A stretch of 64,000 nt of DNA. Source: a bacterium (GTDB taxonomy: Bacteria; Desulfobacterota; Deferrisomatia; Deferrisomatales; Deferrisomataceae). How positions within the stretch are numbered: the first letter of the stretch is position 1; every line of letters starts with the position of its first letter. Location of the stretch: the NCBI GenBank assembly GCA_027021615.1, contig JALUTY010000078.1, positions 62,001 through 126,000 of the forward strand, given 5' to 3'. Under the pieces are notes generated by a model that saw only the letters and a program-made list of their open reading frames with translations, was not told the origin of the DNA and did no database searches. Below, piece after piece: positions 27,352 through 54,931 of this stretch. Both the position numbers and the translations under genes were made by a program.

Positions 27352-28428
27352 TCAGGAAACCTCCTGGGTCGTGCGCGCGACCCCCGGGCGGATCGCCACC
27401 GCCAGGGTCCAGGTGGAACCTTTGACCTTGGGGAGCGCCAGCCGGCCGCCGGGGCTCGCGGCCAGGGCCGCGGCCTCGGCCACGCTGGGGGTGCCCACGG
27501 CCCGGCGGACCCGCTCGGAAGGGGTCGGCACCTCCACCGCCTCCAGCGCCTCGGCCGGGAACACCCGCAGGGGAACCCCCAGCTCCCCCGCCAGGCGGTG
27601 GAGGGCGGGCTCGTCGGCCTTGGCGTCCACCGTGGCCACGGCCGTGAGGCTCAGCTCGCTCCAGCCGGCCCGGCCGAGCGCCGCGCGGATCCCCTCCACG
27701 ACCTCGCCGGGGTCGGCCTCTCGGCGGCACCCCACCCCGGCCACGAGGCAAGGGGGCCGGAGGTACAGTGCCGCTCCCGGCTCGGGCCGCAGCCGGGGGG
27801 ACACCGCCAGGAGCACCCCGGGGAACCCCCGGGCCTCCTCCTCGCTCTCGGTGGCCCGGTCCAGGTGGTCCCGAATCCCGTCCAGGAGGGGAAGCCCCCC
27901 GGCAACGGGATCGGCCCAGGCCCCGACGGGCTCCCCGTTCGCCAGGGCCGCGTTCACGGTCGTGAGCCCCTGCCGGGGCTCCCACCGGAACCCCCGGGCC
28001 TCGGCCCAGACCTCGATCGCCGGCTTTCCGAGGGCATCGGTGGCCGTGGTGATGACCGGCGTCCCGCCGAGAACCCGGGCCGCGTGCCGGGCCAGGTCGT
28101 TGGCCCCGCCCAGGTGGCCCGAGAGGATCGGCACGGCGAACCGGCCGTCGGGATCGAGCACCACCACGGCCGGGTCCCGGGTCTTGTCCTCCAGAAGACT
28201 CGCGATGGCGCGAACCGCGATGCCGGCCGCCATGACCAGGAAAAACCCCTCCGCCTCCTTCCAGAGCCGGGCCAGGAGCGCCGCGACCGGCTCCCGGAGG
28301 GGCTCGTCGCCGTCCACGGCGAACCGCTCCGGCACCCACACCCGGCACCCGGCCAGCCCCTCGGCCAGGCGCCGGGCCGTATCCGCCCCGACCCGCGTGA
28401 GGGCGACGGCGTGAAGCTGTGTGGACAT
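27352..28428 (-). CDS. cbiG: Cobalt-precorrin-5A hydrolase
   Basis: Opens the delta-lactone of cobalt-precorrin-5A, releasing acetaldehyde; a marker of the anaerobic pathway. 358 residues in the usual three parts: N-terminal domain with FFLVMAAGIAVRAIASLLEDKTRDPAVVVLDPDGRFAVPILSGHLGGANDLA, a linker, and the C-terminal CbiG domain with LVAGVGCRREADPGEVVEGIRAAL, VATVDAKADEPALHRLA and GTPSVAEAAAL. The ATG at 28428 begins the conserved sequence. Flanked by cbiF and cbiH; the gap to cbiF is a period-7 array. Confidence 0.93.
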   Translation of the reverse strand: MSTQLHAVALTRVGADTARRLAEGLAGCRVWVPERFAVDGDEPLREPVAALLARLWKEAEGFFLVMAAGIAVRAIASLLEDKTRDPAVVVLDPDGRFAVPILSGHLGGANDLARHAARVLGGTPVITTATDALGKPAIEVWAEARGFRWEPRQGLTTVNAALANGEPVGAWADPVAGGLPLLDGIRDHLDRATESEEEARGFPGVLLAVSPRLRPEPGAALYLRPPCLVAGVGCRREADPGEVVEGIRAALGRAGWSELSLTAVATVDAKADEPALHRLAGELGVPLRVFPAEALEAVEVPTPSERVRRAVGTPSVAEAAALAASPGGRLALPKVKGSTWTLAVAIRPGVARTTQEVS

Positions 28429-28454: not shown

Positions 28455-29336
28455 TCAGGGGTCCGTTTCCCCTGTCTTCTGTCCTCTGTCCTCTGATTCC
28501 TGACACCGGAACCCGTGGATGAACCCCGGGTCGTAGAGCTTGGACCGGGGGAAGCCGTCCCAGCCCTGGAGCCGGGGCCGCAGGGCCTCGCCCACCAGGA
28601 TCATGGCCTGCCGCCGGAACCCGGCCTCCCGGACCTTTTCGGCGATGTCCGAGAGCGTACCGGTGACCCACGACCCATCGGGCCACGAGGCTCGGTGGAC
28701 CACAGCCGCCGGGGTTTCCGGGGGTCGCCCCCCCCGGAGGCAGGCCTCCACCACCTCGTCGATCCGGCCCACCGACAGGAACACGCACAGGGTGGCCCCG
28801 GTGGCGGCCAGCCGGTCCAGGGACTCCGCCTCGGGCACCGGGGTCCGGCCGGCCAGCCGGGTGAACACCACGGTCTGGCTGACCCCAGGCAGGGTGAGTT
28901 GGGTGCCCAATGCCGCGGCCGAGGCAAACGCGGAGCTCACCCCGGGGATCACCCGGCAGCGGACTCCCGCGGCCTCGAGGGGCGCGATCTGCTCCTGGAT
29001 GGCGCCGTAGAGCGAGGGGTCGCCGGTGTGGAGCCGCACCACCCGCCGGCCGGCCCGGGCCGCTTCGAGGCAGATCCGGGTCGTCTGCTCCAGGTCCAGG
29101 GGGGCGGTGTCGTGAATCTCGGTCCCGGGCCGGGCCCACCCGAGCACCTCGGGGTTCACCAAGCTGCCGGCGTACAGGATGACGTCGGCCGCCTCCACGG
29201 CCTCCCGGCCCAGCACGGTGATGAGCCGGGGGTCGCCGGGGCCGGCGCCCACGAACACCACCTCGCCGGGGCGAACAGTGGAAGAAATTCGGTCGTCGGT
29301 CGGAACTTCGGTCTTCGGTCGTCGGTCGTCGGTCAT
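28455..29336 (-). CDS. cbiF: Cobalt-precorrin-4 (C11) methyltransferase with repeat-derived ends
   Basis: SAM-dependent C-11 methylation in corrin synthesis. The catalytic core (about residues 22-275) has VVFVGAGPGDPRLITVLGREAVEAADVILYAGSLVNPEVL, RVVRLHTGDPSLYGAIQEQI, VIPGVSSAFASAAALGTQLTLPG and the family's C-terminal strand. The 20 N-terminal residues (MTDDRRPKTEVPTDDRISST) and about 15 C-terminal ones (ESEDRGQKTGETDP) are translations of intergenic period-7 arrays. No start codon exists between the array and the core, so translation seems to begin inside the array; the ribosome-binding site is weak. Confidence 0.9.
   Translation of the reverse strand: MTDDRRPKTEVPTDDRISSTVRPGEVVFVGAGPGDPRLITVLGREAVEAADVILYAGSLVNPEVLGWARPGTEIHDTAPLDLEQTTRICLEAARAGRRVVRLHTGDPSLYGAIQEQIAPLEAAGVRCRVIPGVSSAFASAAALGTQLTLPGVSQTVVFTRLAGRTPVPEAESLDRLAATGATLCVFLSVGRIDEVVEACLRGGRPPETPAAVVHRASWPDGSWVTGTLSDIAEKVREAGFRRQAMILVGEALRPRLQGWDGFPRSKLYDPGFIHGFRCQESEDRGQKTGETDP
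28460..28500. repeat. Period-7 array (CTGTCCT class) at the cbiF 3' end
   Basis: CTGTCTT-CTGTCCT-CTGTCCT-CTGATTC-CTGAC forms the end of cbiF (read on the minus strand as ESEDRGQKTG) and the gap before cbiG. Confidence 0.8.
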
Positions 29337-29600
29337 CGGTCCGGGGCCTTCGGCCCGCTTGAAGGCTGGAAAGCTAGAAAGCTGGAAGGCTGAAAACCTC
29401 CTCCCAGTAACTTCGGTCGTCGGTCGGAACTTCGGTCAACGGTCGTCGGTTTACGGTCTTCGGTTCGCTGGCGGCCAGAGGGTTGGGCAAGCGCACACCA
29501 CGAACCGCCCCTACACTCCAAACAGAAAATCCGTGTCGATCTGTGTCCATCTGTGGCCAAAAGGTTTTCGCTTCCAGCCTCCTAGCCTTCCAGCCTCACC
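29281..29600. repeat. Compound 7-, 8- and 10-bp-period arrays between cbiET and cbiF
   Basis: GGTC recurs at 29291, 29298, 29310, 29317, 29324, 29331 and 29338 (period 7, inside the cbiF N-terminus). An octamer run follows (AGGCTGGA, AAGCTAGA, AAGCTGGA, AGGCTGAA from 29363), then more 7-mers near 29408-29465. Next come three 10-mers ATCCGTGTCG, ATCTGTGTCC, ATCTGTGGCC (29529-29558), and octamers again at about 29575-29600, which encode the end of cbiET. No other feature occupies this gap. Confidence 0.85.
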
Positions 29601-30778
29601 AAACACACCGGGTTCTCCGGGACCATGCGGTGCCGGCCGGCCACGGGGCGGGAGCGGCTGGCGCGCACCTCGGTGATCTCGGGCTCGAGGGACCGAGCCC
29701 GGGTCCACGCGAGCGTCTCGGCCTGGGTCTCCAGGAGCACGGCCGCCACCAGGAGCACCCCGCCGGGCCGGAGCCGCCCCCAGGCCACGTCCAGCACGGC
29801 CGCGAGCCGGCCGCCGCTTCCGCCCACGAACACCCGGTCCGGATCGGGCAGCGCTTTCAGTGCGCCGGGCGCCTCCCCCTCCACCGGAACGAGCCCGGCG
29901 GCCCGGAACCGGCGGCGGTTCTTCCGGATGTGGCTCACGCCCTCGGCGGTCTTCTCCACGGCGTACACGCGCAGGCCCGACCGCAGCAGGCACGCCTCCA
30001 CCGACACCGACCCCGACCCGGCCCCCACGTCCCACAGCACCCCGGCCTCGGGCAGGTCCAGGAGTCCCAGGGCCACGGCCCGGACCTCCCGCTTGGTGAT
30101 CAGCCCCCGGTCGTGGGAGAACGCCCCGTCCGGGATCCCCGGGCCCAACGGCCGGGCCGGGACCCCGTTTCGCAGCAGGAGCACCACGTTCAGGTCCGAG
30201 CCGGTCCAGTCCCGGAACTCCGACACCGGGCCGCGGGTGACCCTCTCGGTGGGGAGGCCCAGGTCCTCGGCCACCACCATCTCGTAGCCGTCCCACCCGG
30301 TGTCCTCCAGGAACGACGCGATCCGGGTCGGGGAGTTCTCCGCGTCCGTGAACACCCCGATCCGCCGGGCCCCCAGAAGCGGGGCCAGGTTCTCCAGGGG
30401 GCGGCCGTGGAGGCTCGCGAACCGGGCGTCGCTCCAGGGCTCGCCCGCCCGGGCGAACGCGAGCTGCATGGACGAGATCGCGGGGACGATCTCCACCTCG
30501 TCCCGGGGGAACCGCCGGAGCACCAGGGCCGCCGCGCCGAAGAAACCGGGATCCCCCGACGCCAGGAGGACCGCCCGCAGGTTCGGGTCGGCCGCGACCC
30601 GAGCCACCACGTCGGTTACCCGGTGATCCTCGAACGGGAGGATCTCGCCCCGGAACCCGGGCACCAGAGCCAGGTGCCGCCGGGACCCGGCGAGCAGGTC
30701 GGCCCGGGCGATGCGCTCGGTCACCTCGGCCGGAAGCCCCCGGGCGCCGGGCTCCACCCCGGCCACCAGCACCCTCAC
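29582..30778 (-). CDS. cbiET: Cobalt-precorrin-7 (C5) / cobalt-precorrin-6B (C15) methyltransferase fusion
   Basis: A 398-residue two-domain enzyme (CobL/CbiET type). N-terminal CbiE methylase (about 1-205): VLVAGVEPGARGLPAEVTERIARADLLAG, LLASGDPGFFG, EIVPAISSMQLAFARAGEPWSDARFASLHGR. C-terminal CbiT domain (about 215-398), a class I SAM methyltransferase/decarboxylase: HDRGLITKREVRAVALGLLDL, LWDVGAGSGSVSVEACLL and FVGGSGGRLAAVLD. The GTG at 30778 overlaps the cbiD stop by 4 bases. The stop codon TAG comes from an octamer repeat (…CTGGAAGGCTAG), so the last residues LEG are repeat-encoded. Confidence 0.94.
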   Translation of the reverse strand: MRVLVAGVEPGARGLPAEVTERIARADLLAGSRRHLALVPGFRGEILPFEDHRVTDVVARVAADPNLRAVLLASGDPGFFGAAALVLRRFPRDEVEIVPAISSMQLAFARAGEPWSDARFASLHGRPLENLAPLLGARRIGVFTDAENSPTRIASFLEDTGWDGYEMVVAEDLGLPTERVTRGPVSEFRDWTGSDLNVVLLLRNGVPARPLGPGIPDGAFSHDRGLITKREVRAVALGLLDLPEAGVLWDVGAGSGSVSVEACLLRSGLRVYAVEKTAEGVSHIRKNRRRFRAAGLVPVEGEAPGALKALPDPDRVFVGGSGGRLAAVLDVAWGRLRPGGVLLVAAVLLETQAETLAWTRARSLEPEITEVRASRSRPVAGRHRMVPENPVCLVRLEG

Positions 30779-39610: not shown

Positions 39611-42600
39611 ATGGGAACGCATCGTCTCGGTCGGGTTCTACTCGTCGCGCTGCTCGCGGGACTCCTCGGCGCGCCCGCGCGGGCCGCCGTCCAGGTGGAG
39701 GTGGGGGCCCAGGGCGCGGGTGCGGGCTCCACCACGTCGCCGGTGGTGGTGCCCAACTACGTGCAGATCACGTTCCCCAACGGCACGGGCAGCCAGACCG
39801 TGCCCCAGGGCGAGGCCGGGTTCTACGCCGAGGCCCGGGTGCGGTACGCCGGCAACGGCCCCCTCACCATCCGGTGGGTGGTGGACGGGTACCCGATCGC
39901 GGTGATGAGCCGGACGCTCACCTACGGCACCGACTTCACCGTTCGCTCCGACGAGACCGGGGTGCCCCTGCCCACCCACGAGCCCGGCTCCCACGCCGTC
40001 ACCCTGACCCTGGACAACGGCACCGGGCGCCGGACGGTGATCGCGGTACCGACGATCCGGTACTTCGTGACCAACCCCGCCCCGCTCCCGCCGTCCCTGG
40101 TGCCCGTGGCCCCGGCGTCGGGCTCCCGGGCCGACCCGCTGGGCCTGGCGTTCCGGTGGCGGCTCCAGGCCACGGGCAAGGCCGCCTCCCGGGCGGTTCC
40201 GCAGCGCTACCGGGTGGAACTCCAGGCCCGCCCCGCCGGCACCGGCGGGCTCCGGGCCTCCCGCTGGCGCGCGGCCACGGCCGCCGACGGCCTGTCCGAC
40301 GCGTGGGTGCCGGTGTGGGGGGTCGAGACCGCCGGGGACCGGTACGCGGTGCCCGCGGCCGACGCCGTGGGGTTCCGGGGGGGCGACCACCGGTGGCGGG
40401 TGACCGCGTTCTTCGACGGGCGCGAGCCCGTGGTGAGCGACTGGGTGGCGTTCACCCTGGACGAGCCGCCGGAGCCGGGGAAGGCCGTGATCGGGGCGGT
40501 GCGGCTCGCCGCCGACCCGGTGACCCTGGGCGCCGGGGCGGTCCCGGGCCGGCTCTCGGAGAGCCTGGGGATCCACCTCCGGGAGACGGTGGAGGCCGAC
40601 CGGGACGTCGTCCTGGTCGTCCGGGTCCAGAACGGCGCGTTCCGCACCCGGGACGACCTCGTCCTCGAGCTGGCCCAGGGGGGCGTGCCGTGGGTCCGGC
40701 GGTTCCTGTCGGCCCTGCCCCCGGCCACCGCGGACGGGGGACGGGTGTCCAGCCCGTACCTGGACGTGGCCCTGCCGTGGCGGGCCCCGGCCCTCACCGC
40801 CGACGGCGACCTGGTGGTGCGGCTGCTCCGGGACGGGCGCGAGGTGGACCGCGCCACGGTGTCGTACACGGTGCGCGTGTCGCGGCAGGTGGGCCGGTTC
40901 GACTTCGCCGAGCGGGTCCGGCCGGCCCCCGAGGAACGGGGGTTCTCGCGGGCGCCCCTCGCGTGCGGGGTCACCTTCTCCGGCAGGGTCCCGACCCTGT
41001 GCGACCGGGTCGAAGCGACCGGGGGCGGACCGTTCTCCGGGGACGGGCCCCCCACGGGCGCGATCACCGGCTTCCGGTCGTCCGCCGGCGCCGACGGCCT
41101 GGCCGACGACGGGTCCCTGCACGCCGACGCGGGGGTGCCGGGCTGGTTCCTCGGCGAGGTCACGGACAACGGGTACGCGGCGTGGGCCGGGGCCCAGACC
41201 CGCCGGTGCACGGCGAACCTGCGCGACCTGGCCGCGTACGCCGACGAGCTGGCGGACCGGCTCGAGAGCGGGCGCCTGCGGGACCTGCCCCCCCCGCCGG
41301 CGGAGGCCACGTGCCGGGGGCTGGAACGCACGGTGTCCCGGGCGACGGGGGGGAGGCTGACCCGGGCCGAGCGCACGGACCTGGCCGCCCGGGCGCGCAG
41401 CACGGCCCGGGGGATCCGGGACGTGGTCGGCGAGCGGACCGACGAGGGCCCGTACCCGGGCTACCCCATGCCCCTGGCGATCCACCGGGTGCTGCCCGAC
41501 GGGGCCACCGAACCGGCCGGCTGGCTGGCCGGCGACGCCGTGGTGCGGGTGCAGCCGGGGGACCGGGACCGGCCCGTCACGGTGGGGCCGTGGACTCCCG
41601 AGGAGCCGGGGCTGTACCTGGCCAGCCTCGGGGGGTTCGCCCCGTGGACGGAGGTCCGGGTGACCCACCCCGGGGGGCTGCCCGCCACCCTGCTCATGGG
41701 CGGGTTCGAGGTGGTGGTCGACGCCTACGATCCCGGTGCCAAGCCCGGCGGGGCGCTGTCCGGCACCGCCCACCTCGCGTGGCGGGGCGATACCTCCGGG
41801 GCCGAGGTCCCGGTGCGTTTCGAGGGGGTGCGGATCGAGGCCACCCCCGACCCCCTGGTGGCCCGGGTCACCATGGGCACGGCCTCGCTCCAGGGGGAGC
41901 CGGTCCCCCTGTCCCTGGGCGGGCACGGGTTCAGCCTGCGGCGCCTGGATCTCGACGCGTCCCGGGCCACCGCCGACCTGGACCTGTGGTACCCGATGCC
42001 CGGCGCGGTGCGCCCCGTGGACGTCCCGGGGGTGCTCCCCCTGGAGCGGGTCGAGATCGTCTCGGGCGGCGAGTTCGTGGCCGAGCGCCGGTTCCCCGAC
42101 GACCTGCCCGACCTCCACCCGTACGTGCGGCCGGGGGTGTTCGTGCCCTACGGGGACGACGTCGCGCTGAAGCTGGCCGGGGCCCGGATCGTGGCGGACT
42201 TCTCCCCCCACCTGGGGTACGCCACCCACGGCGGCCAGGGCCCCGAGTGGCAGGGGGTGGCCCTGGCCGGGGGCTACGTGCGGGTGGCCGTCCACGCCCG
42301 GTCGGACCTGGCCCTGACCCCGGGGGTGGACGAGTCCCGGACCGGCCTGTTCGAGACCGTGGACCCGACGAGCGCGTACCTGTACGGCCGGTTCGCCCGC
42401 CTCGAGCTGGCCACGGACGGACGCCTCACCGGCGAGATCGAGGTGGTGCCGGCGGCCGAGGCGCCGGCGTTCTTCGGCGTCGCCCCGTCCGCCGAGCCCC
42501 TCCGCCTGGAGGACCCGGCCGGGTTCGAGCTGGCGGTGGACGGGGGCGTGTTCGCGTTGGACGGCGACGGGGTCGGGGGGCTCTCCCTGGCGGGCGAGGT

Positions 42601-45600
42601 GCGCCTGCCGGCCGCGTACGCCGCCCAGCCCGTGCGGTTCCAGAACCTCGGTCGCGTGCCCGGGAGCAGCCGGTTCCAGACCGAGCCCCTGCCGGCCGGC
42701 GTGGTGCAGCTGGGCGGGTTCACGTACCGCCCGGCCGAGGCCCGGCTGGTGATCCCCGGGGGCCGGTCCGCGGCGGCCGGGGACCTCCGGCCGGTCCCGC
42801 CCCGGCGCGCCCTGGTGCCGCCTGCGTCCGCCGAGGAGGCCGACGCGTGGATCGCCGAGTACCGGGCCGGCCTCGCCGGCCGGGGAGGGCTCCACCTCAC
42901 CGGCGGGCGGGTGGACCTGCCGTGGCCCGAGGCCCCGCCCCTGCCCGCGCCGCGGGAGGGGGCCGGCGACGGCGGCGGGGGGCTGGCCGCGATCCAGGTG
43001 GACGGCACCCCCCTGTCCGACGTCGTCCAGGCGTGGGGGCAGCGGGCGGCCGTGGTGCTCACCTCGTCCGGCGCCGACGGCCTGTGGTTGCTGGAGCGGG
43101 ACACCGTGGCGCGGGAGGTGGCCGGGTTCCGGGCGCGCATCGGCGGGGCGGTGGTGGAGTTCGACGACTCGGCCGTGGCCCGCAGCCTGGTGGAAGGCGA
43201 CCTGCTGGTGCCGTACCCGGTGGACCTGGCCCTCGGGTTCCGCGGCGAGGTGGACGCGTCGGGCCAGATCCTGGTGGGGCCCGACGGCCTCGTGCCCCCG
43301 GACGCGTCCGCCGGCTGGCCCCTCCGGTACTGGTCGGCCACGCTGCACCCCCGGGCCGCCGCCGACGGGGCGGCGCCGGGCGTCGTCCTCGACGGGCCGG
43401 GCCGGCGGATCGTGATCCAGGACGCCGGGCTCGCCCTCGCGGTGCCCGACGCGTACGGCGGCGTGGAGTTCCGGGCCGACGGTGCCGAGCACCCGTTCAC
43501 GGTCACCCTCGACATCTACCCCGACGGCAACATCGGGTACGACCGGGACCCGCGGGGCAGCCCGCCCATCGCCCCCGCCGGGTCCGGCCTGCGGTTCCTC
43601 GGGATCCCGTTCACCCCCGAGGTGGCGGCCACCGCCCGGGAGGGGGAGACGGCCCTGTCGTTCCGCCGCTACGTGGGGGACCACCGGCCGCCGCCGCCCG
43701 ACGCGCCGCCCACCCGGGACTGGCGGGTGCGCCTGGACGGAAGGCTCGCGTTCCAGCTGTTCAAGCCCCGCCACATCACCGTGTTCCACACCGCCCTGGG
43801 GGCGATGGTGCCGTACGTGGAGCCCCAGCACCGCAACGAAGACGGCGCCCCGGAGCCGATCGTGGGGGACCCCGGCGGCGCGATCTACATCGACGCCACC
43901 CTCAAGTTCCTGAACACCTACGGCACCCCGGACACCGTGGTGGACGCCCGGCTGGCCGGCAGCGCCGACAGCGACCGGTACGACGAGGCCCAGCCCAAGC
44001 AGTTCAAGGCGTTCCTCGGCAAGGCCACGGTGGAGGTGCTCGGGGCCCTGTCGTTCAACGGCCTGGCCGAGGTGGGGCAGTACCTGGACGCCGACGGCGT
44101 CCTCACCGCCTACGAGAAGGTGGGGGCCGGGGCCGGGGTGGACATCGTCAAGGCGGCCCTCGCCGCCCTCCACATCGGGGAGACGGCGGCCCGGCTGGGC
44201 GGCTCGATCGCCGGCGAGGTGACCGGGGCCGAGGGGGTCGGGGCCGAGGTGATCAACGTGGCCACCGAGGCGGCCGCGTTCGCCAGCTCGGTGGTCACCA
44301 CCGTGGCCGCGGCCGCGGCCACCGGCGCGTCGGCCGGCGGTGCCGGCGGCGTGGGCGTGGAAGAGGTCCGGGCCCTGGTGGGCAACGGGCTGTCCCTGGC
44401 CGGGGCGTCGGTGGACCTGCTCAAGGCCTTGTACCTGTCGCCCGACCTGTTCAAGCCGTCCCCGGAGGCCACGGACCCCGAGTACGTGGCCATGGAACTC
44501 GCCGACATCGCCATCACCGCGGCCAACATGGGGGTGCAGTTCGACGAGATCACCCCGGAGCAGGCGGCCGCCCTGGTGCTCCAGACCCTCGACACCGCGA
44601 TCCCGATCCTCCAGTCGATGCAGTACGACCCGCCCGAGGTGGACGCCCAGGTGGACCTGGCCCTCCAGGTGGCCAAGGTCCTGGTCACGGCCGCCCGGGC
44701 CCTGGTGGAGCGGGGCACCATCGACCCGACCACCGCGTGGCGCCTGGCCGACGCGTCCGTGGACGTGGTGCGCCGGTACGCCGAGATCGAGAGCGGCAAC
44801 CCGGCCCTGGGCGCCCTGCCCCTGGCCGTGGCCCTGGCGCAGACCGGGGTGGCCATCGGGCAGGGGGTGAACGCCGGTACGCCGGTGGACCTGGCGCAGG
44901 TGGTGGACCTCGCCGACGAGGTGAGCGCGTTCGTGTGCGCCAACCCGGAGGTGGGCGACCCCCTGACCTCCGGCGACGCCCCGGTGACGACCCGCCAGGA
45001 GTTCCGGAACGTGGCCGTGGTGTCCCGGCAGGTGTTCGCCTCGCTCAAGGAGCTGGTGGACGGGGGCGCCGCCGACCCGGCGGCCGTGGCCGGCGCCCTG
45101 GTGGACGTCCTCGACCCCCTGGCCGGCTCCGCCGCCGGCCAGGTCCGGTGCGGCGCCGTCACCGCCCGGGTGGACTACGGCCGGTTCGACGCCCAGGTGA
45201 AGGCCGCCCTGCGCCTGGGCCAGGTGGCCCTCCGGGGGGTGAGCGCGGTGCCCGAAGGGAACCTCGGAACGGCCCGGTGGGGGGCCGATCTCCTGGTCCA
45301 GGTGGCCAACACGGTGCGGGCGATCGCGCCGGGCACCCTCGCCTTCGACGAGGTGGCCGCCCTGCGGGACCTGCGGCGGGCCCTGGCCCAGCTGGACGAC
45401 GCCGACCCGCCCCCGGTCCAGGTGCTCCAGGTGGGGTCGCAGCTGGCGCGCCCCCTGGGCCTGGTCGCCCGGCGGGCCACGGGCGACCGGACCGCCGTCC
45501 GGTACGTCCACATCGTGGCCGGCATCCTCGACGCCCTGGTCCCCCTGGCGGACGCGGACCGGTGGGACGGGCTCGCGACCTGGGGCCGCAGCCTGGACGG

Positions 45601-48600
45601 GGTGGTCGCCGAACTCCAGGGCCTGCCCGGCGCGGCGAGCGACCCCCTCCTGTCGGACGGCCTCGCGTACACCCGGGGGGTCCTGCAGTTCATCGCCCTG
45701 TACGGGGCCGAGATCCAGCGGCTCCCCGAGGTGCTGCAGGTCGGTCTCGAGCTGATCGACCTGCTGATCCGGGCCGACGAGCGGGGGGGCCTCACGGCGA
45801 GCCTCGACCGCGACCCGGTCCTGGTGGCGTGGGCCGGCGACGACCGGGCGCTGGCCCGGTTCCTCCCGGCGGCCGCTCCCGGCCGGGCGGCCGGCCCGTT
45901 GCGGGTGGCCGCGGCCGTGCTGCGGGGGGCGCTGGGCGTGTTCGAGGCCGGCGGTCTCACCCCGCCGGTGGTGGCCCGGATGCTCGACGACCTGGCCACG
46001 GCCTACCAGCCGGCGGGGGAGTTCACGGCGCCCCTGGCCGCCGCCCTGCGGGCCGTGGACCCGGTGTGGGCCGACCGGCCGCCGGCCGACACGTACCCCC
46101 GCACCCTCGAGGCCCTGCTGGAGACGGAGGCGGACCGGGTCGTCGACCCGGCGGGCCGGGAAGCGGTGGCGCGGGCCCTGTACGTGCTGCGCCGGCCGCC
46201 CGCCTCCCGGGTCGGGGTGTGGGTGACCCGGGCCGGCGGGACGGTCCGCCGGGTGCGCCAGGTGGACCTGTCCGGCGTGGAGCGGACCCTCGACCTGGAA
46301 CGGGGCGGGGTCCTGTCCGTCCGGTACCCGGACGACCACCCCGACTTCCCCGGCCTGCGCGAGCTGCACGTGCTGGACGGGGTCGAGGACCTGCCCGAGG
46401 ACCGCCTGACCGACCTGGCGGGGGTCGAGCAGACCCTGGCCACCGACGCGACGGTCCAGGAGCGGGAGTACCGGGACGGCCGGGGCGGCCGGGTCTCGTA
46501 CAACCGCCAGCTGGGCGAGGTGGTCAAGGTGACCGCCGGCCGGGCGGACGGCACCTTCGTGCCGTACCGCCTCCTCCTGGTGGCGGCGCCGCCGCCCCGG
46601 GGAACCCCGGGGGACGAGATCTCGGGCACCCTCCTGGAGGCCCGGTGGCTGGACGCCGGGGGGCGCCGCATCGCGTTCCAGCCCCAGATGGAGGCGGTCT
46701 CGATCTCCGACCCGGCCACGGGCGAGCGGCAGCTGCGGTTCGTGGCCGGCGACGTGCCGTTCACGGACGTGGCCGCGGTGCCCCTGGACGGGCGGCTGCT
46801 CGCGTACGAGGGGCCCCTGCCGGGCCGGCCGGACCTGCGGGTGCGCTACACCGCGGGGCGCGGAACGGTGCACGTGGCGCAGGGGGAGAGCTTCGACGTG
46901 GTCGCGTTCGAGCCGGCCGAGGCGCCGACGGACCCGGCCGGCCTGGAGGTCGGCGGTGCCCTCCTGGAGCGGCAGGTGGTGTTCGCCGACGGCACCCGCC
47001 ACCTGTACCGGCCCGGCGAGTTCGCGGCGTACGTGGCGCCGGACGGCTCGGCCGAGATCTACGCGTTCCCGGCGGTGCCGCCCGGCGCGGCGGTGCCGGC
47101 CCCGGACCAGGACCTGGCCCACGGCCCCCTGCTGCTGCGCGCCACCGCGTCCGGCGACGTGGTGGACGCCCAGGGCGTCAGCCTGTTCGGCGACCCGGCC
47201 GGGGCGGGCACCGTGGCCGAGCAGCTCGGGTTCGCCGACGTGGTGGACGTGGAGCAGCTGGTGCGCGACCAGCTGGAGAGCACCGGCCTCACCGGCGAGG
47301 CGCTGGACGCCCGGGTCGCGGCGCAGATGGAGGCGTTCAGCCGGCTCGCGGTGGCCCGGACCCCGGAGGGCGGCATCGTGGTCACCGGCGGGACCGGGGA
47401 GCCCGTGTTCGCCGCAGCCGACGGCGCGGTCACCGTGTACCCGGAGGGGGCCGCCCCCCGGTCCGAGCAGGCGGTGGACGGCCGGCGGGTCACCACCTGG
47501 TCCGACCGCGACGGGCAGCACCGGCGCACCGCGTGGATCCTCGAGGGCGGCCAGCCGGCCGTGCTGAACGTCACCACCCGGCCCGGGGGCGACGTGGAGT
47601 TGGTGTTCGCCACCCCGGAGGAGACCACCCGCCGCCTCGCCACCGCCGCCGGCCGCGAGGTGATCGACATCGAGCGCGCGGACGGCACCCGCTACCACGC
47701 GGAGTACGACCGGGACGAGCCCGCCGTGTCGTACCCCGGCCCGCCCGGCCGGGTGACGGCGCCCTCTGAAGACGACCCGCTCTACGCGCACAAGACCGCG
47801 TTCCTGAACGCCCTGGAGACGGCCCGGGCCGCCTTTGCCGGGGCGCCCTCCGACGAGGGCGCCGGGCGCCTCCTGGCCCTGTGGGCGGAGGCCGAGGCCA
47901 ACGGCTGGGCCGTCGACGGGGTGGGACCCCAGGTCCTGGAGACCCTGGCCGCCGGCCTGTCGGCCCTGGTGGACGACGCCCTGGCCGCGGTGGAGGCCCG
48001 GGCTTCGGACCCGACCGCGGTGACGGACTGGTTGACGCCTCCCCCGGAGGGGGACAACCCGATCGCCGCCCTGCTCGGGCACCTCGCCCTGGCCCAGGAG
48101 ACGGGCCTGGTCGTGGCCGATCGGGTGGGGGCCCGCCTCGGCCTGGCCCTGCGCCGGACCTACCTCGCCCTGCGCGAGCGGATGGCGACGGCCCCGCAGC
48201 CGGACGACGGCGCCCGCCTCCTGGGGCTCAACACGTTCGTCCAGCAGGGGGTGGTCGACCCCGAACTGGTGTACGGAGCCGAGAACCTGGCGGCGGCGGC
48301 CGCCGCCGACCTGGCCCTGCTGTGCCAGGCGGCCCGGGCCGCGTACGACCGCCTGGAGGGCCTGCTCGCGGACCCGAACCGGGTGTTCGTCACCGCCGAC
48401 GCGCGGGCCGCCCTGGCGGTGGAGCGCGACAACCAGATGCTCGGCTGCCCGGCCGTGGGGGAGGCGTTGTCCCCCGCGTTCGCCGCCGTCGGGTACCGGC
48501 CGTTCGACGCCACCGACCTCGCGCTGCGGGTGACGGAGCGGATCTCGGCCGACCTGGCGGTGAGCACCGGCGGCACCGAACGCGCGTCCTTCGACCTCGC

Positions 48601-51600
48601 GTTCACCTCCCGGCTGGCGGAACAGATCGCCCGCTACGGGCTCGCCGGCCGGGCCGCGGCCGTGGAGCGGCTGGGCGCGGCGGTGGACGCCCTGCCCGAG
48701 GCCGAGGACTCCCTGGACCGGCTCCTCCACTACCTGTTCCGCGTCCGCCGCCTCCAGGAGGTCCCCCTGCCGGCCGAGGCGGACCGCGACCCGTCGTGGG
48801 ACGCGGTGTGGGAGGGCAAGCCGGACGACCTCGGCGTGCTGGAGGACGCCGTGGTCGCCAGGATCCGCAACATCTGGACCGCGGCCTGGAACGGGGCCGC
48901 CCTCACCCTCGTGTACCCGCCGGACGACGCCCCGCCCGTGGCCGACCGCGTGGCCGAGGTGGCCCGGCTCGCCCGGCTCGGCACCCGGGTGGAACGCACC
49001 CTGGGCCGGCCGGACCTCGACGTGGACGGCGCCAGGGACCGCCTGCGGCAGCGGCTCGCGGACAGCCTGACGGGCCGCCTCGACCGCTACCTGGACGAGC
49101 TGGGTCGGGCGGCCGACCCGGTCGTGGACCCGGCCGACCCGTCCGTGGCGGCCGTCCGGGACGTGGCCGACACCCTCCGGCTGCTGGCCGACGCCGTGCC
49201 CGGGTGGGCCCCGTTCACCGCCGACGACGCGCTGCTGCCGCGCCTGCGGCCGCTCCTCGAGGCGCTCCCGCCCGCGCCGTCCGAAGCGGATCTCGCGCCC
49301 CTCGCGCCCTGGCCCGACCTGGCCGCCGCCCTCGGCGCCGACCGGACCCGCGCCGCCCTGGGCGCCGCCCTGGACGACCGGATCGCCACCCTGGTGGAAC
49401 GGGGCCGCTCCGGCGCCGTGCCGTGGGAGTACGCGGTCCGGGCGATCCTCCGGATCCACGCCGCCGCCCAGCGCCTGGGGTGGGACCTGCCGGCCCTGTC
49501 GGCGAGCGCCGGCGCCGACCTGCTCCCGGTGCTCCGGGAGGCCTACACGACCGCCCGCCGGGCGGTGGACGGCGGCGACTTCGACGGGGCGGCCCGGGAA
49601 CTGCTCTCGGTCCTGGCGACGGCCCAGATGCTCGGGGTGGAACTGCTGCCCGTGGACGGGTTCCCGGCCGAGGCCGATCTCGCCGCGGTGGTGGACCACC
49701 TGGGCGCCCGCCTCGAGGACCGGGCGGCCGAGAACGCCCGGTGCGTCGCCGTCGGCACCTGCCTCACCCGGAACCTGGAGGAGGCCCTGCGGCTCGCGGC
49801 CGACGCGCAGCTGCTGGGGGCCGACGCCCCGGCGGTGGAGCGGCACCTCCACGCGGTGGTGCGCGCCACCACCGCGGCAGCGTCCGGCGACTGGGACGGG
49901 CAGGTCGTCACCCCCGTGGTCCTGGAGCAGCTCGCCACCCGGAACGCGGACGCGCGCGGCCGGGCCGCCGGTCTCCTGGAGCGGGTGGCCGCGGGGCTCG
50001 ACCCCCGGGTGGAGGGGGAGCGCCGGCTCCTCCGGGTCCTGGCCGACCGGGCCCGCATCCTCGCCGCCCAGCCGCTGAACACGCCGGGGGCCGCGCTCCC
50101 GTCGCCCGACCCGCTGGCCGTCCTGGCCGACGCCCTGGAGGCGCGGCTGGGGACCTGGGCCGGCACCGACCTGGCCGCCCGCCTGGCCGGGATCGCCGGC
50201 GCGGCCGGGGCCGACGCGGCCGCCGACCTGTGGCGCGACTACTGGGGTCAGGCCGTGGAACGCCTGCCCGAGCCCGCCGCCGTCCGGGAGCTGCTCGATC
50301 TCGCGGCCGCGGCGCCGGCCGCCGCCGGGCTGAACCGGCCGGTGGACCTGCCGTCCCGCCTGGCCGGTCTGGCCCAGCGGGTGCGGGCGCAGATCGCCGA
50401 ACCCCTCGGCCGGGTGGTGGAGGCGGCGCGCACCGGCGCCGACCCGGGGGAGGACCTGGGCACGGTGAAGCGGTGGGCGGCCGCGGCCGCCGACCTGGCC
50501 GCGTTGCCCGCCGCGGACCTCCCCACCGTGGCGTCCCTGGTGGAGCCGCTCCTGGCCGCCGACCTGGCCGCGTTGCCCGAACACCCCACCGGCGAGCAGT
50601 GGGCGGCGGTGGGGTTCTGGCCCGCCCTCCTGGACGAACTCGGTGCCGAGGGGCTGGTGTCGCGGATCGGCGCGGCGGTGGACGCGCGGGTGCAGGCGGC
50701 CGTGGCCGCGGCGCGGGCCGACCCGACCCGGTGGTCCGCGTCGGTCCGGGAGATCCTGGACGCCATGGTGGTGGGGCAGCAGTTCGGCTGGGACGCCCCG
50801 TCCCTGGCCGCCGGCCCGTCCGCGACGGCCCTGGAGGAGGTGCTGCGCGACGCGTACGGGAGCGTCCGGGACCGCCTGCTGGCCGACCGGGACGACGCCG
50901 CGATCCGGGAGATGATGGCGCTCCTGGCCACGGCCCAGTTGCTCGGCGCGGACCTGTCCGTGGGCGGCTACCTGCCCGGGGCGGACCCCGAGTCGGCCGT
51001 CGCGGTGGTGGGTTCCGTCCTCGTGGAGCGCTCCGCGGCCAACGCCGCGTGCGTGGCCGAGGGGGCGTGCCTCAAGCGCCACCTGGAGACCGCGTTGTTC
51101 CTGGAGACCCAGGCCCAGCTGCTCGGGTTCGACGGCAGCGACGCCGTCCGCGCGGACCGGGAGGCGGTGCAGGAGGTGGCCCTGGCCACCGACCCCGAGA
51201 GCGACTACGCCGCCCTGTGCACCGGCTTCGTCCTCCAGGAGAAGGCGGAGGAGGGGCCGGCCGGCCGGGCCGCGGCGGCCCGGTGGGTGGGTGCCCGGAC
51301 GGACGAGCTGGACCCGACCGACAGCGACGACTTCGGCGAGCTGCAGCGCCTCTACCGGCGGGTGACGGCGGTGGCCGCCCTGCCGGTGGACTACCCCGTG
51401 CCCAGCCCGGACCCCCTGGCCGCGGCGGCGGCCGGGATCCAGGGCCTCCTCGAGCGGTTCGCGGCCACCCAGCTCGACGTGACGGAGCTGATCCGGAAAG
51501 CGGTGAACGGGGACGTGGACGACCTGTTCGACCAGCTCGACCGCCTGGCCGTGCGCGACGGGGCCAGCCTGGCCACCGCCGCCCAGAGCGGCCAGGTGCT

Positions 51601-54600
51601 CTCGGTCGAGGCGTTCGCCGAGCAGGACCCGGGGGCGCGTTACGAGGCGGTCGCGGCCGCCCTGGAGCCGGCCCGCGCCGTGCTCGGCAGCCACGGCCTG
51701 CTGGCCGGGCGGCTGGCGGCCCGCCTGCCCGACCCCGCGGCCAGCGCGGCCGACCCGTTCCGGGACGCCCTGGCCGCGGAACTCGCCCGGTTCGTGGTGG
51801 AGGAGGGCGGCCTCCGCCCCCTGGGCCTGGTGCAGCCGGGCGCGTCCACGGCCGAGCAGCTCGCGGCCCAGCTGTCCCCCGAGGGGATGCTCACCGGCGC
51901 GTTCACCCTGCTCAAGCCCCGGCCCGGGTTCTCCCCCGGCCAGGCGCTCGCCCGGATGTTCCGGACCACCCTGGCGGCGGCCGGACTGCCGTCCACGGGG
52001 TGGCCCGGGGGCGCCGCCAGCCTCCTGGGCGGCGTGGTGGACGGCGTCCTGTCGGCCGGGTACCAGGGCACGGTCGCCGGAAACCCGATCGACTGGAACC
52101 GGGTCCTGCGCGACGCCGTGACGCCCCTGTCGTCGGGAACGAGCGGGTTCTGGGTCCGGCTGGTGGCGGACACCACCCTCCTGGGGCTCGCCGTGGCGGA
52201 GACGGGCGGGCCGTCCGATCCCGAGGCCCAGGGCCGGGAGGCGGTGGACCTGCTGGGGCGGCTGGTGCAGGAGGGGGACTTCCAGACCACCGTGGACGGG
52301 CTGCCGGAGCCCGTGCGCACCGGCGTCCGGCTCGCCGCCCAGGTGCCGGTGGACGCGCTCTCCTACGCGTGGACGCTGCAACCGGGGGACACCGCCGACG
52401 CGCCGCCCCGCCGGGTGGCGGGCGACCCGATCCTGTACGCGTTCCTCAAGGCCGCGGCCAATGCCCTGTTCCCGTCGCCCGGGGGCGCGCCGTCCGCGGG
52501 CCGGGAGCTGTCCCACTGGGCGCTGGACCTGGTGGCGGGGCAGGAGGCGGCCCTTGCCCAGGGGCCGGAGCAGGGGCTGCCCGCCCTGGCCGGGGCCCTG
52601 GTGGCCGCGGACGGGGCGCCGAAGCTCGCGTGCATCCTGGACCGCCACGTGGACGGCCTCGACGTGACGCCTCGCGCCCTGGTGGCGCCGTTCGTCCTGA
52701 TCAACGAGGTGGCCAAGAACGCCGCCCTCCTCGGCACCGACGACGCGCCCCGGGTGCTGATCGACGTGGCCGCAGGGGGGGCGGACTACCTGTACTCCCG
52801 CGTGCCCCTGTCCTGCGGGGACGGGCCGTTCGCCGGGGTGGAGCCCTCCGCCCTGGGGATCCTGATCCGCCAGTTCAAGGACCTGGAGTCGGTTCGCGAC
52901 CCGTTCGAGCTGGCGGGCCGGGTGGCCGTGGCAGCGGTCTACACCGCCGAGGCCCTCGCCGGGGAGAACCCCCACACCCTGTCGCGGGTGCTCAAGGTGC
53001 TGTGGTGGGGCGCCCAGGCCGACCCGGCCACGTGGCCCCCGGCCCGGTCCGTGGGCGTGTACCACCTGCTCGCCGGCCAGGTGCAGGACCCCGTGACCCA
53101 GGTGCAGTTCGCCCTCGGGGTGCCGAAGATGGCCGGGGAGGTGATCGACATCCTCTCTAGCGACCCCGCCCTCCAGAAGCCGATGCGGCTGCTGTCGGGC
53201 AGTTGCGAGAAGATCGGCGACCAGGAGCTGCTCCTCGCCCCCGACGCGTGCGACCCCGGCGAGGGCAAGGGCGCCCGCAACCTGATCCTGGGCGCCCTCG
53301 GGGACCTGCGCCGGACGATCCTCCCCGACCTGCCGGACGACGCCCACGCCAACGACGAGGCGTGGGGGTACCTGCGGACCCTCCCGATCCTCGCGGGGGC
53401 CGACGCGGACGGCGTGCCGGTGCTCGCCAACCTGGGCGACGAGGACCTGTGGGCCGACACCGTGGCGCGGGTCAACAACCTGAACCGGGCGGTGATCGAC
53501 CCGGCGGCGCGCGCCGCGGTGGCCGACGACGCGAAAAAGGCGGTGGTGGGGGTGATCGACCTGGCCCGGATGGCGGTGTCGTTCGTGGACCGGCTGCCCA
53601 CGGGGAACCAGGTCCAGGTGGGGGCCGAACAGGTGCTGGCCGACTCGGTGTTCACCGAAACGATCGGCGGCGCGACGTTCACCGGCATCGGCGGCGGGGT
53701 GTGGCGGCGGTGGTCCCTGGCCGGGGGCGGCGTACGCCCCCTGGACGAACGGGTCCGGCTCGAGCTGGTGGGCCGGTTCACCCTGCCGGCCCTGCTGAAG
53801 GTGGCCGCCCAGTTCACCTACGAGACCCTGGGGCCGAACGAGTGGCTGGTGAAGATCCAGGCGGGGGGCAACTACCCCGACCTGGACGCGGGGTTCCAGT
53901 CGATCGGGGTGAGCGTGCCCGCCAACCAGCTGGCCGAGTCCCTGGTCGGCGGGGCCGAGGCGGAGCTGTTCGGCTGGCTCGGCCACAACGACGCCGGCGC
54001 GTACGCCCGGCTGTGGGCGTACGCGGACGCCAACCTGGGGGCGCTCCCCCTGGGCAGAGTGAACCTGTCCGGGTTCATGACCGTGCCCGCGGCGGCCAAC
54101 GGCCGCCCGCTGCCCCCCGAGGCGTTCGTCCGGGCGTTCGACGCGGGGATGTGCGGCGACCTCGCCCTGCCGGTGGTGCCGCCCCCGTTCTCCCTGCTGA
54201 GCGGCGGGCTCACGGCCGAGGCCGGCGGGTACTTCTACAAGCAGGGCGACGCGATCGGGTTCGGGGCGAAAGGGGGGGCGGCCGTGCAGGTGATCATCCC
54301 CATGTTCCCGGCGGCGGGCCTCGAACTCGGCCTGGCCCTCGGCCAGTCCGGGGACGCGGTCCTGTCCGGTACCGCGGCCCGCCTCGGCCTCGGCATGTGC
54401 GTCTCGCCGTGGGTGCGGGGGTACTTCCTCGGGTTCGACGTCGAGAGCCCCGGGACCGGCCTGGAGGCGCAGTACTTCGGCGCGGTGGACACCGCGTCGG
54501 AGGACGCGGAGGTCGGGATCAAGTTCCGGCTCTCGATCCCCGACGTGAAGACCGACCTGCCGGAGATCGACTGCACCCCCATCCCGGAGGAGGACGCCCT

Positions 54601-54931
54601 GGCCCGCGGCGTGTGCGAAGGCCTGCAGCTGCTCGTGTCCACCACCTCGGCGGGCCAGTCCGTCGGCGCCTGGGGGGTGCTGGGCACGAAGGGGTTCTCG
54701 TTCGGGCTCGGGGAGTTCCCCACCGACCCGGAGAGCTGGGTCCTCCACATGCCCGTGTCCGGCGGGGCCCTGGCCGGGATCACCGTGACGCACCCCTCCC
54801 CGGCGTGGGTCGGGTGGAGCCCCAGCCCCTACAACGTGTGCGACCGGGACATGTGCGCGGGACGGGACGGCCAGTTCCGGCCCGACGCGGCCGTGCCGGG
54901 CCAGGTGATGACGGAGCCGAACCATGAGTAG
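39611..54931 (+). CDS. Giant secreted protein (5,106 residues), unknown family
   Basis: One uninterrupted 15.3-kb frame. Signal peptide 1-25 (LLVALLAGLLGAPARA). Beta domains follow: an Ig-like domain (30-157) shared with the upstream lipoprotein, an FN3-like part (160-290), a CARDB-like part (295-420) and further beta-rich sequence to about 1480. A helical block lies at about 1500-2180. A beta segment with YD-repeat-like phrases (DGTRHLYRPGEF, DGTRYHAEYDRDEP) covers about 2195-2715. A long Ala/Leu-rich helical region (2720-4650) contains a 434-residue-period duplication. A beta-rich Gly/aromatic end (4680-5106) finishes with Cys pairs such as YNVCDRDMC. No transmembrane anchor, kinase, protease or repeat-toxin motif recognised. 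The ATG at 39611 follows GGGGAG. The stop overlaps the next start by 8 bases. Confidence 0.88.
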   Translation: MGTHRLGRVLLVALLAGLLGAPARAAVQVEVGAQGAGAGSTTSPVVVPNYVQITFPNGTGSQTVPQGEAGFYAEARVRYAGNGPLTIRWVVDGYPIAVMSRTLTYGTDFTVRSDETGVPLPTHEPGSHAVTLTLDNGTGRRTVIAVPTIRYFVTNPAPLPPSLVPVAPASGSRADPLGLAFRWRLQATGKAASRAVPQRYRVELQARPAGTGGLRASRWRAATAADGLSDAWVPVWGVETAGDRYAVPAADAVGFRGGDHRWRVTAFFDGREPVVSDWVAFTLDEPPEPGKAVIGAVRLAADPVTLGAGAVPGRLSESLGIHLRETVEADRDVVLVVRVQNGAFRTRDDLVLELAQGGVPWVRRFLSALPPATADGGRVSSPYLDVALPWRAPALTADGDLVVRLLRDGREVDRATVSYTVRVSRQVGRFDFAERVRPAPEERGFSRAPLACGVTFSGRVPTLCDRVEATGGGPFSGDGPPTGAITGFRSSAGADGLADDGSLHADAGVPGWFLGEVTDNGYAAWAGAQTRRCTANLRDLAAYADELADRLESGRLRDLPPPPAEATCRGLERTVSRATGGRLTRAERTDLAARARSTARGIRDVVGERTDEGPYPGYPMPLAIHRVLPDGATEPAGWLAGDAVVRVQPGDRDRPVTVGPWTPEEPGLYLASLGGFAPWTEVRVTHPGGLPATLLMGGFEVVVDAYDPGAKPGGALSGTAHLAWRGDTSGAEVPVRFEGVRIEATPDPLVARVTMGTASLQGEPVPLSLGGHGFSLRRLDLDASRATADLDLWYPMPGAVRPVDVPGVLPLERVEIVSGGEFVAERRFPDDLPDLHPYVRPGVFVPYGDDVALKLAGARIVADFSPHLGYATHGGQGPEWQGVALAGGYVRVAVHARSDLALTPGVDESRTGLFETVDPTSAYLYGRFARLELATDGRLTGEIEVVPAAEAPAFFGVAPSAEPLRLEDPAGFELAVDGGVFALDGDGVGGLSLAGEVRLPAAYAAQPVRFQNLGRVPGSSRFQTEPLPAGVVQLGGFTYRPAEARLVIPGGRSAAAGDLRPVPPRRALVPPASAEEADAWIAEYRAGLAGRGGLHLTGGRVDLPWPEAPPLPAPREGAGDGGGGLAAIQVDGTPLSDVVQAWGQRAAVVLTSSGADGLWLLERDTVAREVAGFRARIGGAVVEFDDSAVARSLVEGDLLVPYPVDLALGFRGEVDASGQILVGPDGLVPPDASAGWPLRYWSATLHPRAAADGAAPGVVLDGPGRRIVIQDAGLALAVPDAYGGVEFRADGAEHPFTVTLDIYPDGNIGYDRDPRGSPPIAPAGSGLRFLGIPFTPEVAATAREGETALSFRRYVGDHRPPPPDAPPTRDWRVRLDGRLAFQLFKPRHITVFHTALGAMVPYVEPQHRNEDGAPEPIVGDPGGAIYIDATLKFLNTYGTPDTVVDARLAGSADSDRYDEAQPKQFKAFLGKATVEVLGALSFNGLAEVGQYLDADGVLTAYEKVGAGAGVDIVKAALAALHIGETAARLGGSIAGEVTGAEGVGAEVINVATEAAAFASSVVTTVAAAAATGASAGGAGGVGVEEVRALVGNGLSLAGASVDLLKALYLSPDLFKPSPEATDPEYVAMELADIAITAANMGVQFDEITPEQAAALVLQTLDTAIPILQSMQYDPPEVDAQVDLALQVAKVLVTAARALVERGTIDPTTAWRLADASVDVVRRYAEIESGNPALGALPLAVALAQTGVAIGQGVNAGTPVDLAQVVDLADEVSAFVCANPEVGDPLTSGDAPVTTRQEFRNVAVVSRQVFASLKELVDGGAADPAAVAGALVDVLDPLAGSAAGQVRCGAVTARVDYGRFDAQVKAALRLGQVALRGVSAVPEGNLGTARWGADLLVQVANTVRAIAPGTLAFDEVAALRDLRRALAQLDDADPPPVQVLQVGSQLARPLGLVARRATGDRTAVRYVHIVAGILDALVPLADADRWDGLATWGRSLDGVVAELQGLPGAASDPLLSDGLAYTRGVLQFIALYGAEIQRLPEVLQVGLELIDLLIRADERGGLTASLDRDPVLVAWAGDDRALARFLPAAAPGRAAGPLRVAAAVLRGALGVFEAGGLTPPVVARMLDDLATAYQPAGEFTAPLAAALRAVDPVWADRPPADTYPRTLEALLETEADRVVDPAGREAVARALYVLRRPPASRVGVWVTRAGGTVRRVRQVDLSGVERTLDLERGGVLSVRYPDDHPDFPGLRELHVLDGVEDLPEDRLTDLAGVEQTLATDATVQEREYRDGRGGRVSYNRQLGEVVKVTAGRADGTFVPYRLLLVAAPPPRGTPGDEISGTLLEARWLDAGGRRIAFQPQMEAVSISDPATGERQLRFVAGDVPFTDVAAVPLDGRLLAYEGPLPGRPDLRVRYTAGRGTVHVAQGESFDVVAFEPAEAPTDPAGLEVGGALLERQVVFADGTRHLYRPGEFAAYVAPDGSAEIYAFPAVPPGAAVPAPDQDLAHGPLLLRATASGDVVDAQGVSLFGDPAGAGTVAEQLGFADVVDVEQLVRDQLESTGLTGEALDARVAAQMEAFSRLAVARTPEGGIVVTGGTGEPVFAAADGAVTVYPEGAAPRSEQAVDGRRVTTWSDRDGQHRRTAWILEGGQPAVLNVTTRPGGDVELVFATPEETTRRLATAAGREVIDIERADGTRYHAEYDRDEPAVSYPGPPGRVTAPSEDDPLYAHKTAFLNALETARAAFAGAPSDEGAGRLLALWAEAEANGWAVDGVGPQVLETLAAGLSALVDDALAAVEARASDPTAVTDWLTPPPEGDNPIAALLGHLALAQETGLVVADRVGARLGLALRRTYLALRERMATAPQPDDGARLLGLNTFVQQGVVDPELVYGAENLAAAAAADLALLCQAARAAYDRLEGLLADPNRVFVTADARAALAVERDNQMLGCPAVGEALSPAFAAVGYRPFDATDLALRVTERISADLAVSTGGTERASFDLAFTSRLAEQIARYGLAGRAAAVERLGAAVDALPEAEDSLDRLLHYLFRVRRLQEVPLPAEADRDPSWDAVWEGKPDDLGVLEDAVVARIRNIWTAAWNGAALTLVYPPDDAPPVADRVAEVARLARLGTRVERTLGRPDLDVDGARDRLRQRLADSLTGRLDRYLDELGRAADPVVDPADPSVAAVRDVADTLRLLADAVPGWAPFTADDALLPRLRPLLEALPPAPSEADLAPLAPWPDLAAALGADRTRAALGAALDDRIATLVERGRSGAVPWEYAVRAILRIHAAAQRLGWDLPALSASAGADLLPVLREAYTTARRAVDGGDFDGAARELLSVLATAQMLGVELLPVDGFPAEADLAAVVDHLGARLEDRAAENARCVAVGTCLTRNLEEALRLAADAQLLGADAPAVERHLHAVVRATTAAASGDWDGQVVTPVVLEQLATRNADARGRAAGLLERVAAGLDPRVEGERRLLRVLADRARILAAQPLNTPGAALPSPDPLAVLADALEARLGTWAGTDLAARLAGIAGAAGADAAADLWRDYWGQAVERLPEPAAVRELLDLAAAAPAAAGLNRPVDLPSRLAGLAQRVRAQIAEPLGRVVEAARTGADPGEDLGTVKRWAAAAADLAALPAADLPTVASLVEPLLAADLAALPEHPTGEQWAAVGFWPALLDELGAEGLVSRIGAAVDARVQAAVAAARADPTRWSASVREILDAMVVGQQFGWDAPSLAAGPSATALEEVLRDAYGSVRDRLLADRDDAAIREMMALLATAQLLGADLSVGGYLPGADPESAVAVVGSVLVERSAANAACVAEGACLKRHLETALFLETQAQLLGFDGSDAVRADREAVQEVALATDPESDYAALCTGFVLQEKAEEGPAGRAAAARWVGARTDELDPTDSDDFGELQRLYRRVTAVAALPVDYPVPSPDPLAAAAAGIQGLLERFAATQLDVTELIRKAVNGDVDDLFDQLDRLAVRDGASLATAAQSGQVLSVEAFAEQDPGARYEAVAAALEPARAVLGSHGLLAGRLAARLPDPAASAADPFRDALAAELARFVVEEGGLRPLGLVQPGASTAEQLAAQLSPEGMLTGAFTLLKPRPGFSPGQALARMFRTTLAAAGLPSTGWPGGAASLLGGVVDGVLSAGYQGTVAGNPIDWNRVLRDAVTPLSSGTSGFWVRLVADTTLLGLAVAETGGPSDPEAQGREAVDLLGRLVQEGDFQTTVDGLPEPVRTGVRLAAQVPVDALSYAWTLQPGDTADAPPRRVAGDPILYAFLKAAANALFPSPGGAPSAGRELSHWALDLVAGQEAALAQGPEQGLPALAGALVAADGAPKLACILDRHVDGLDVTPRALVAPFVLINEVAKNAALLGTDDAPRVLIDVAAGGADYLYSRVPLSCGDGPFAGVEPSALGILIRQFKDLESVRDPFELAGRVAVAAVYTAEALAGENPHTLSRVLKVLWWGAQADPATWPPARSVGVYHLLAGQVQDPVTQVQFALGVPKMAGEVIDILSSDPALQKPMRLLSGSCEKIGDQELLLAPDACDPGEGKGARNLILGALGDLRRTILPDLPDDAHANDEAWGYLRTLPILAGADADGVPVLANLGDEDLWADTVARVNNLNRAVIDPAARAAVADDAKKAVVGVIDLARMAVSFVDRLPTGNQVQVGAEQVLADSVFTETIGGATFTGIGGGVWRRWSLAGGGVRPLDERVRLELVGRFTLPALLKVAAQFTYETLGPNEWLVKIQAGGNYPDLDAGFQSIGVSVPANQLAESLVGGAEAELFGWLGHNDAGAYARLWAYADANLGALPLGRVNLSGFMTVPAAANGRPLPPEAFVRAFDAGMCGDLALPVVPPPFSLLSGGLTAEAGGYFYKQGDAIGFGAKGGAAVQVIIPMFPAAGLELGLALGQSGDAVLSGTAARLGLGMCVSPWVRGYFLGFDVESPGTGLEAQYFGAVDTASEDAEVGIKFRLSIPDVKTDLPEIDCTPIPEEDALARGVCEGLQLLVSTTSAGQSVGAWGVLGTKGFSFGLGEFPTDPESWVLHMPVSGGALAGITVTHPSPAWVGWSPSPYNVCDRDMCAGRDGQFRPDAAVPGQVMTEPNHE
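49351..51450 (+). repeat. 434-residue internal duplication in the giant protein
   Basis: Unit A begins near 49351 (residue 3247) and unit B near 50653 (residue 3681). Aligned landmarks: ILRIHAAAQRLGWD / ILDAMVVGQQFGWD; LLSVLATAQMLGVEL / MMALLATAQLLGADL; NARCVAVGTCLTRNLEEALRLAADAQLLG / NAACVAEGACLKRHLETALFLETQAQLLG; PSPDPLAVLADALEA / PSPDPLAAAAAGIQG. The spacing from unit start to PSPDPL is 747 bases in both. A weaker related block may precede at about 47800-48500. Confidence 0.85.

Follow-up and report, generated by a model that had tools for sequence, protein, structure and literature searches.

The cbiF locus and the repeat arrays at its ends

The window, i.e., the whole stretch of 64,000 nt that was analysed, carries an open reading frame annotated as a cobalt-precorrin-4 C11-methyltransferase, cbiF (Table 1). 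Its product matched TIGR01465 (CbiF/CobM precorrin-4 C11-methyltransferase) with 317.2 bits (5.9e-95; curated cutoff 259.65), and the model was covered fully, 1-247 of 247, by residues 26-277 of 293. With this full-length match above cutoff the product is a predicted member of the CbiF/CobM family, and 25 N-terminal and 16 C-terminal residues fall outside the family model. Its relatives in the PDB are 4e16 and 1cbf, and the solved CbiF 2cbf aligns from its residue 7. The neighbouring ORFs were named from their own sequences as cbiET, cbiG, and cbiH/cobJ; the family libraries were searched with the cbiF product only. Elsewhere in the window there is a very large ORF of about 5,080 aa (39695-54931) and a 261-nt tandem repeat in 2.7 copies (59245-59953), and an Rfam search over the window found only a tRNA.

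Table 1. Features at the cbiF locus (window positions)
Feature	Position	Strand	Basis
cbiG; begins 26 nt past cbiF stop	27352..28428	-	
cbiF ORF, cobalt-precorrin-4 C11-methyltransferase, 293 aa from ATG1	28455..29336	-	ORF list, TIGR01465, PDB relatives 4e16 and 1cbf
C-terminal extension, residues 278-293 (CQESEDRGQKTGETDP) and stop	28455..28505	-	codon table; relatives end at HGYRRGEG and the like
H2 heptamer array, CTGTCCT on +, AGGACAG on cbiF strand	28466..28498	+	TRF, repeat comparison
Conserved CbiF core, residues 26-277	28506..29261	-	TIGR01465 match
Rival start codons GTG26, GTG27	29256..29261	-	codon table, in-frame start listing
N-terminal extension, residues 1-25: MTDDRRPKTEVPTDDR (array), then ISST, then VRPGE	29262..29336	-	codon table, relatives, congener alignment
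H1 heptamer array, CGGTCGT on +, CGACCGA/ACGACCG on cbiF strand	29289..29341	+	TRF, genome census
Candidate start ATG1; sister-species homology ends here	29334..29336	-	codon table, alignment, accessibility
GGGCCTTCGGCCC hairpin adjoining H1 array	29344..29356		sequence, census
Octamer array, GCTAGAAG type; missing here in sister species	29356..29392	+	repeat comparison
Second, displaced H1 array with complete end (GACCGAAGTTACTGGGAGGAGG), without start codon at usable distance; sister lacks array	29397..29450	-	sequence, alignment, consensus
cbiET; stop TAG and last codons (LEG*) inside octamer array 29570-29597	29582..30772	-	gene calls, repeat comparison

The first-pass annotation had described both extensions as translated heptamer arrays, and judging by the codon table and TRF most of each extension does read an array literally. 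Codons 1-16 are a readout of the CGACCGA/ACGACCG array (TRF: TCGGTCG x7.9 at 29289-29341), the start codon ATG1 itself belonging to a unit variant, ATGACCG for ACGACCG, and codons 280-292 are a readout of AGGACAG (TRF: TCCTCTG x4.0 at 28468-28495). The repeats probably encode the first 20 residues of CbiF; VRPGE (residues 21-25) is common to family relatives without an array. For the tail, the reading frame runs on from HGFR through the array to the TGA with no stop codon in between, both in the genome of the window (G000) and in that of its sister species (G002); any translation of cbiF would therefore include the tail, and the repeats certainly encode it. The proposed origin of the C-terminus in the CTGTCCT array is thereby supported, the order-level orthologues ending near HGYR-xGEG without an array. 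The CTGTCCT unit is much rarer than the H1 unit (10 matches vs 0 in the control).

In the sister species, which is 96% identical, both extensions are present unit for unit and without indels; both are absent from the family and order relatives G003-G007 and G009-G011, and no array-less orthologue has the N-terminal extension. The CbiF of G003 opens with GTG-TTEAVRPGEVVFVGAGPGD, and other relatives end in HGYRRGEG, HGYRQGED, and so on. Two similar-looking long matches (L013 and L016) were rejected, as they are not array-derived.

In relatives the cbiF start either overlaps the cbiET stop or directly adjoins it (GTGA in G003 and G004, TTGA in G006), and cbiF and cbiG overlap by 4 nt in G004, G006, G007, and G011; hence there was no room to spare at the junctions that took in the arrays. 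The cbiET/cbiF junction now measures 245 nt in G000 or about 151 nt in G002 and holds heptamer, octamer, hairpin, and decamer repeats, while the cbiF/cbiG junction consists of 26 nt plus the array-encoded tail. The decamer repeat (ATCTGTGTCC, window 29529-29559) lies in the cbiET/cbiF spacer and is found in the sister species as well. Several other genes also end in octamer arrays, as cbiET does.

Heptamer arrays across the genus

Allowing at most two mismatches, the 19-mer CGGTCGTCGGTCGTCGGTC gave 312 matches in G000 and 0 for the backwards control; two congeners gave 243 and 399 matches, and 27 more distant relatives 0-4. The H1 heptamer arrays are a real, genus-specific repeat family with essentially no members beyond the genus. 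An assembly error or chance similarity, for which nothing was found in favour, is refuted by the identical structure in the independent single-contig genome of the congener and by the excess of array matches over the control.

A census of 0.4 Mb of G000 and 2.0 Mb of G002 comprised 165 H1 arrays, 142 of which (about 86%) are intergenic, where the noncoding share of the sequence is about 12%. Of 114 arrays in codirectional gaps, 96 have CGACCGA on the coding strand (p=4.7e-14). These 96 co-oriented arrays end a median of 23.5 nt before a start codon, and the 18 opposite-oriented ones begin a median of 4.5 nt past a stop; at gene borders the arrays thus face outward. Replication as the determinant of orientation was rejected, since divergent gaps are unbiased (16 vs 13). 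The array has a conserved end, GACCGAAGTTAC, then nGGGAAG (Shine-Dalgarno-like GGGAAGG); complete array ends stand just before a same-strand start in 37 of 63 cases, with the Shine-Dalgarno-like sequence in 32 of those 37, and the GGCCTTCGGCC hairpin lies within 60 nt of 77 of the 165 arrays. The description "intergenic repeat DNA" was therefore correct as far as it went, but the repeat is a polar element at gene borders genome-wide and no random filler. Because the arrays are polar, sit at gene borders, and have this conserved end, cbiF appears to be an overshoot of a genus-wide leader repeat. More generally, the polar heptamer arrays, which in many cases end in a Shine-Dalgarno-like sequence, qualify as a candidate for a spreading translation-control element, which comparison of congeners can date. 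As a tentative idea, to which we give less than even weight, the array and its end (GACCGAAGTTAC-nGGGAAGG) might be a portable translation-leader cassette that has spread in one genus, replacing native operon junctions by bringing a ribosome-binding site and, where a unit mutates to ATGACCG, a start codon and first residues.

Overlap of arrays with genes is not confined to cbiF. Of the 139 arrays in G002, 15 share more than 12 nt with a called gene. Some of the 5' overlaps are probably caller artefacts with a better start downstream; the 3' overlaps have unambiguous stops, e.g., in RecQ-like and MobA-like proteins (named from sequence only). As in cbiF, heptamer arrays occur at each end of two more ORFs: G002:C1:3013916-3014872 (L221) and 1458079-1458798 (L213; MobA-like). 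In an acetolactate-synthase-like ORF (G002:C1:2952280-2954100, L178) the predicted start region spans octamer and heptamer arrays, the start probably having been called too far upstream. Additionally, the locus L157:15577-15765 (G000 contig C122), which has no Rfam match, contains an element of about 190 bp whose ends (GGGGCATGGGG...CCCCATGCCCC) are complementary. The element is dispersed: 2.4 Mb contain 69 copies longer than 120 bp at about 86% identity, of which 68 are intergenic and 26 lie close to a heptamer array.

The start codon of cbiF

The in-frame start candidates of cbiF are ATG1, GTG26 (29261), GTG27 (29258), and GTG29 (29252). The three GTG codons fall on the first strand of the core, and starting at GTG29 would delete that strand. 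The earlier statement that no alternative start codon lies between array and core is right for residues 17-25, but the GTG codons at the very beginning of the core are possible starts.

The N-terminal array could accordingly be an untranslated leader, with translation starting at GTG26 or GTG27. The N-terminal extension would then be an artefact of annotation, produced by a repeat without stops, and the tail at the C-terminus would still be real. We rate this as rather unlikely. The usual position of an array in the genus is that of a leader, a median of 23.5 nt before the start, and GTG26 would sit at about that distance; position 1 of the TIGR01465 model falls on residue 26, and the alignment of 2cbf from its residue 7 favours the same reading. 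The frame is open through an upstream-adjacent array in 59 of 83 genes, and an in-frame start codon occurs within the array in 10 of these 83 (2 ATG), so that one case like ATG1 is expected by chance. Since the arrays are stop-free and most such frames are open by default, an open frame through an array proves no translation by itself, and the same warning (59/83 cases) applies to the annotation of such genomes in general. Our own hexamer-based caller, from which all gene calls come and whose start choices are their most uncertain part, picked ATG1 in G000 and GTG26 in G002.

Against a start at GTG26 or GTG27, neither codon is preceded by a properly spaced Shine-Dalgarno sequence, and both lie in strong structure, with an opening cost of 18.1-21.2 kcal/mol. 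The ATG1 region costs 4.9 kcal/mol in G002 and 12.6 kcal/mol in G000 (median over 700 called starts, 14.0 kcal/mol); ATG1 is more accessible than GTG26/27 in both species. It counts against ATG1, however, that no good Shine-Dalgarno sequence precedes it in either species. The conservation of VRPGE, upstream of GTG26, across the family speaks against the leader reading: compared with the array-less G003 and G004 it differs only at third positions, as expected if translation begins upstream. The frame of the array is unchanged between the two species, alignable sequence between them fails upstream of ATG1, and in G002 a stop codon lies two codons upstream of ATG1. Start-site accessibility, VRPGE conservation, and a species alignment that stops at the ATG together favour ATG1, and we consider it likely that translation begins there. 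The claim of an array-encoded N-terminus is accordingly probable: no array-less orthologue carries the extension, but GTG26/27 offer a standard alternative start and open frames are commonplace. Within the genus the comparison draws on the two genomes in which the cbiF locus is present, G000 and G002.

Origin of the extensions and known repeat systems

Between G000 and G002, 5 of the 41 extension residues differ (pN/pS 0.55, from few sites) vs 8 of the 252 core residues (pN/pS 0.14). AlphaFold gave most of the core a pLDDT around 90-98 and both ends about 45-65, i.e., the extensions are predicted to be disordered. To say that repeat DNA was "recruited" as parts of the enzyme is thus overstated; the extensions are most likely tolerated, nearly neutral additions and no new functional part. 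That they are functional parts selected as peptides, e.g., for interactions or stability, would fit their lack of indels between two species in which unit-sized indels often distinguish the intergenic arrays, but this seems very improbable given the higher ratio than in the core (few sites), the low pLDDT, the same kind of tail on unrelated enzymes, and the intergenic arrays that are equally free of indels. Most array-bearing spacers changed length between the two genomes, often in steps of 7, 8, 14, or 16 nt, and the coding arrays of cbiF kept theirs, a sample too small to prove constraint. The lack of indels was also rejected, as weak, as proof of translation, about a third of intergenic arrays being indel-free too.

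In the account that we favour, a dispersed repeat specific to the genus, with polar heptamer arrays, hairpins, and octamers as its modules, would have entered the cbiET/cbiF junction, where the genes formerly overlapped; the cbiF/cbiG junction would have received a second heptamer family, CTGTCCT. Both events would predate the split of the two congeners. An octamer array now supplies the cbiET stop. The heptamer units ordinarily contain no stop in any frame, and for this reason the arrays gave cbiF open extensions; a one-base unit variant (ACGACCG to ATGACCG) most likely gave the start, and the CTGTCCT array encodes the tail as far as a new TGA, the added residues being most likely unstructured and nearly neutral. 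Taken as a whole, we regard this account as reasonably probable. It would mean that ordinary enzymes can gain residues at both ends from stop-free tandem repeats located at operon junctions.

Heptanucleotide arrays that are mainly intergenic are familiar from cyanobacteria as STRR (short tandemly repeated repetitive) heptamers, to which the H1 arrays offer a possible parallel. We know of no report, from an incomplete literature search, in which both ends of an enzyme come from a stop-free heptamer, and nothing on these repeats was found in the literature on Deferrisoma, the putative genus.

The TAACTGA heptamers of Beggiatoaceae, Cyanobacteria, and Bacteroidetes are abundant intergenic direct repeats, polar, and mostly next to and pointing at start codons; they overlap some ORF ends, and according to the authors survive mainly at protein peripheries (PMC4679880). 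Like them, H1 consists of tandem 7-bp units, mostly intergenic and oriented towards nearby start codons. In contrast, TAACTGA has stops in all forward frames and ends ORFs, and a Shine-Dalgarno sequence is mostly absent (PMC4679880), whereas CGACCGA is stop-free and extends ORFs, and the H1 array end carries the Shine-Dalgarno-like GGGAAGG. The GGGACCG elements of Geobacter metallireducens, described as GC-rich, four-unit heptamers at 49 intergenic and intragenic places, resemble H1 as GC-rich heptamers within and between genes; the likeness is one of description, the unit is another, the repeat number is fixed, and polarity at gene borders does not appear in the part of that description used here (PMC2700814). 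Rickettsia palindromic elements are dispersed repeats read in frame within unrelated housekeeping proteins (PMC10969869), and the cbiF arrays share with them the in-frame translation of a dispersed repeat. Those elements, however, are about 150 bp long and inserted inside ORFs (PMC10969869), whereas here tandem arrays extend gene ends, and neither TRF nor the codon table revealed a palindrome in the coding part of the cbiF arrays. The cbiF case combines themes of the TAACTGA, GGGACCG, and Rickettsia palindromic elements.
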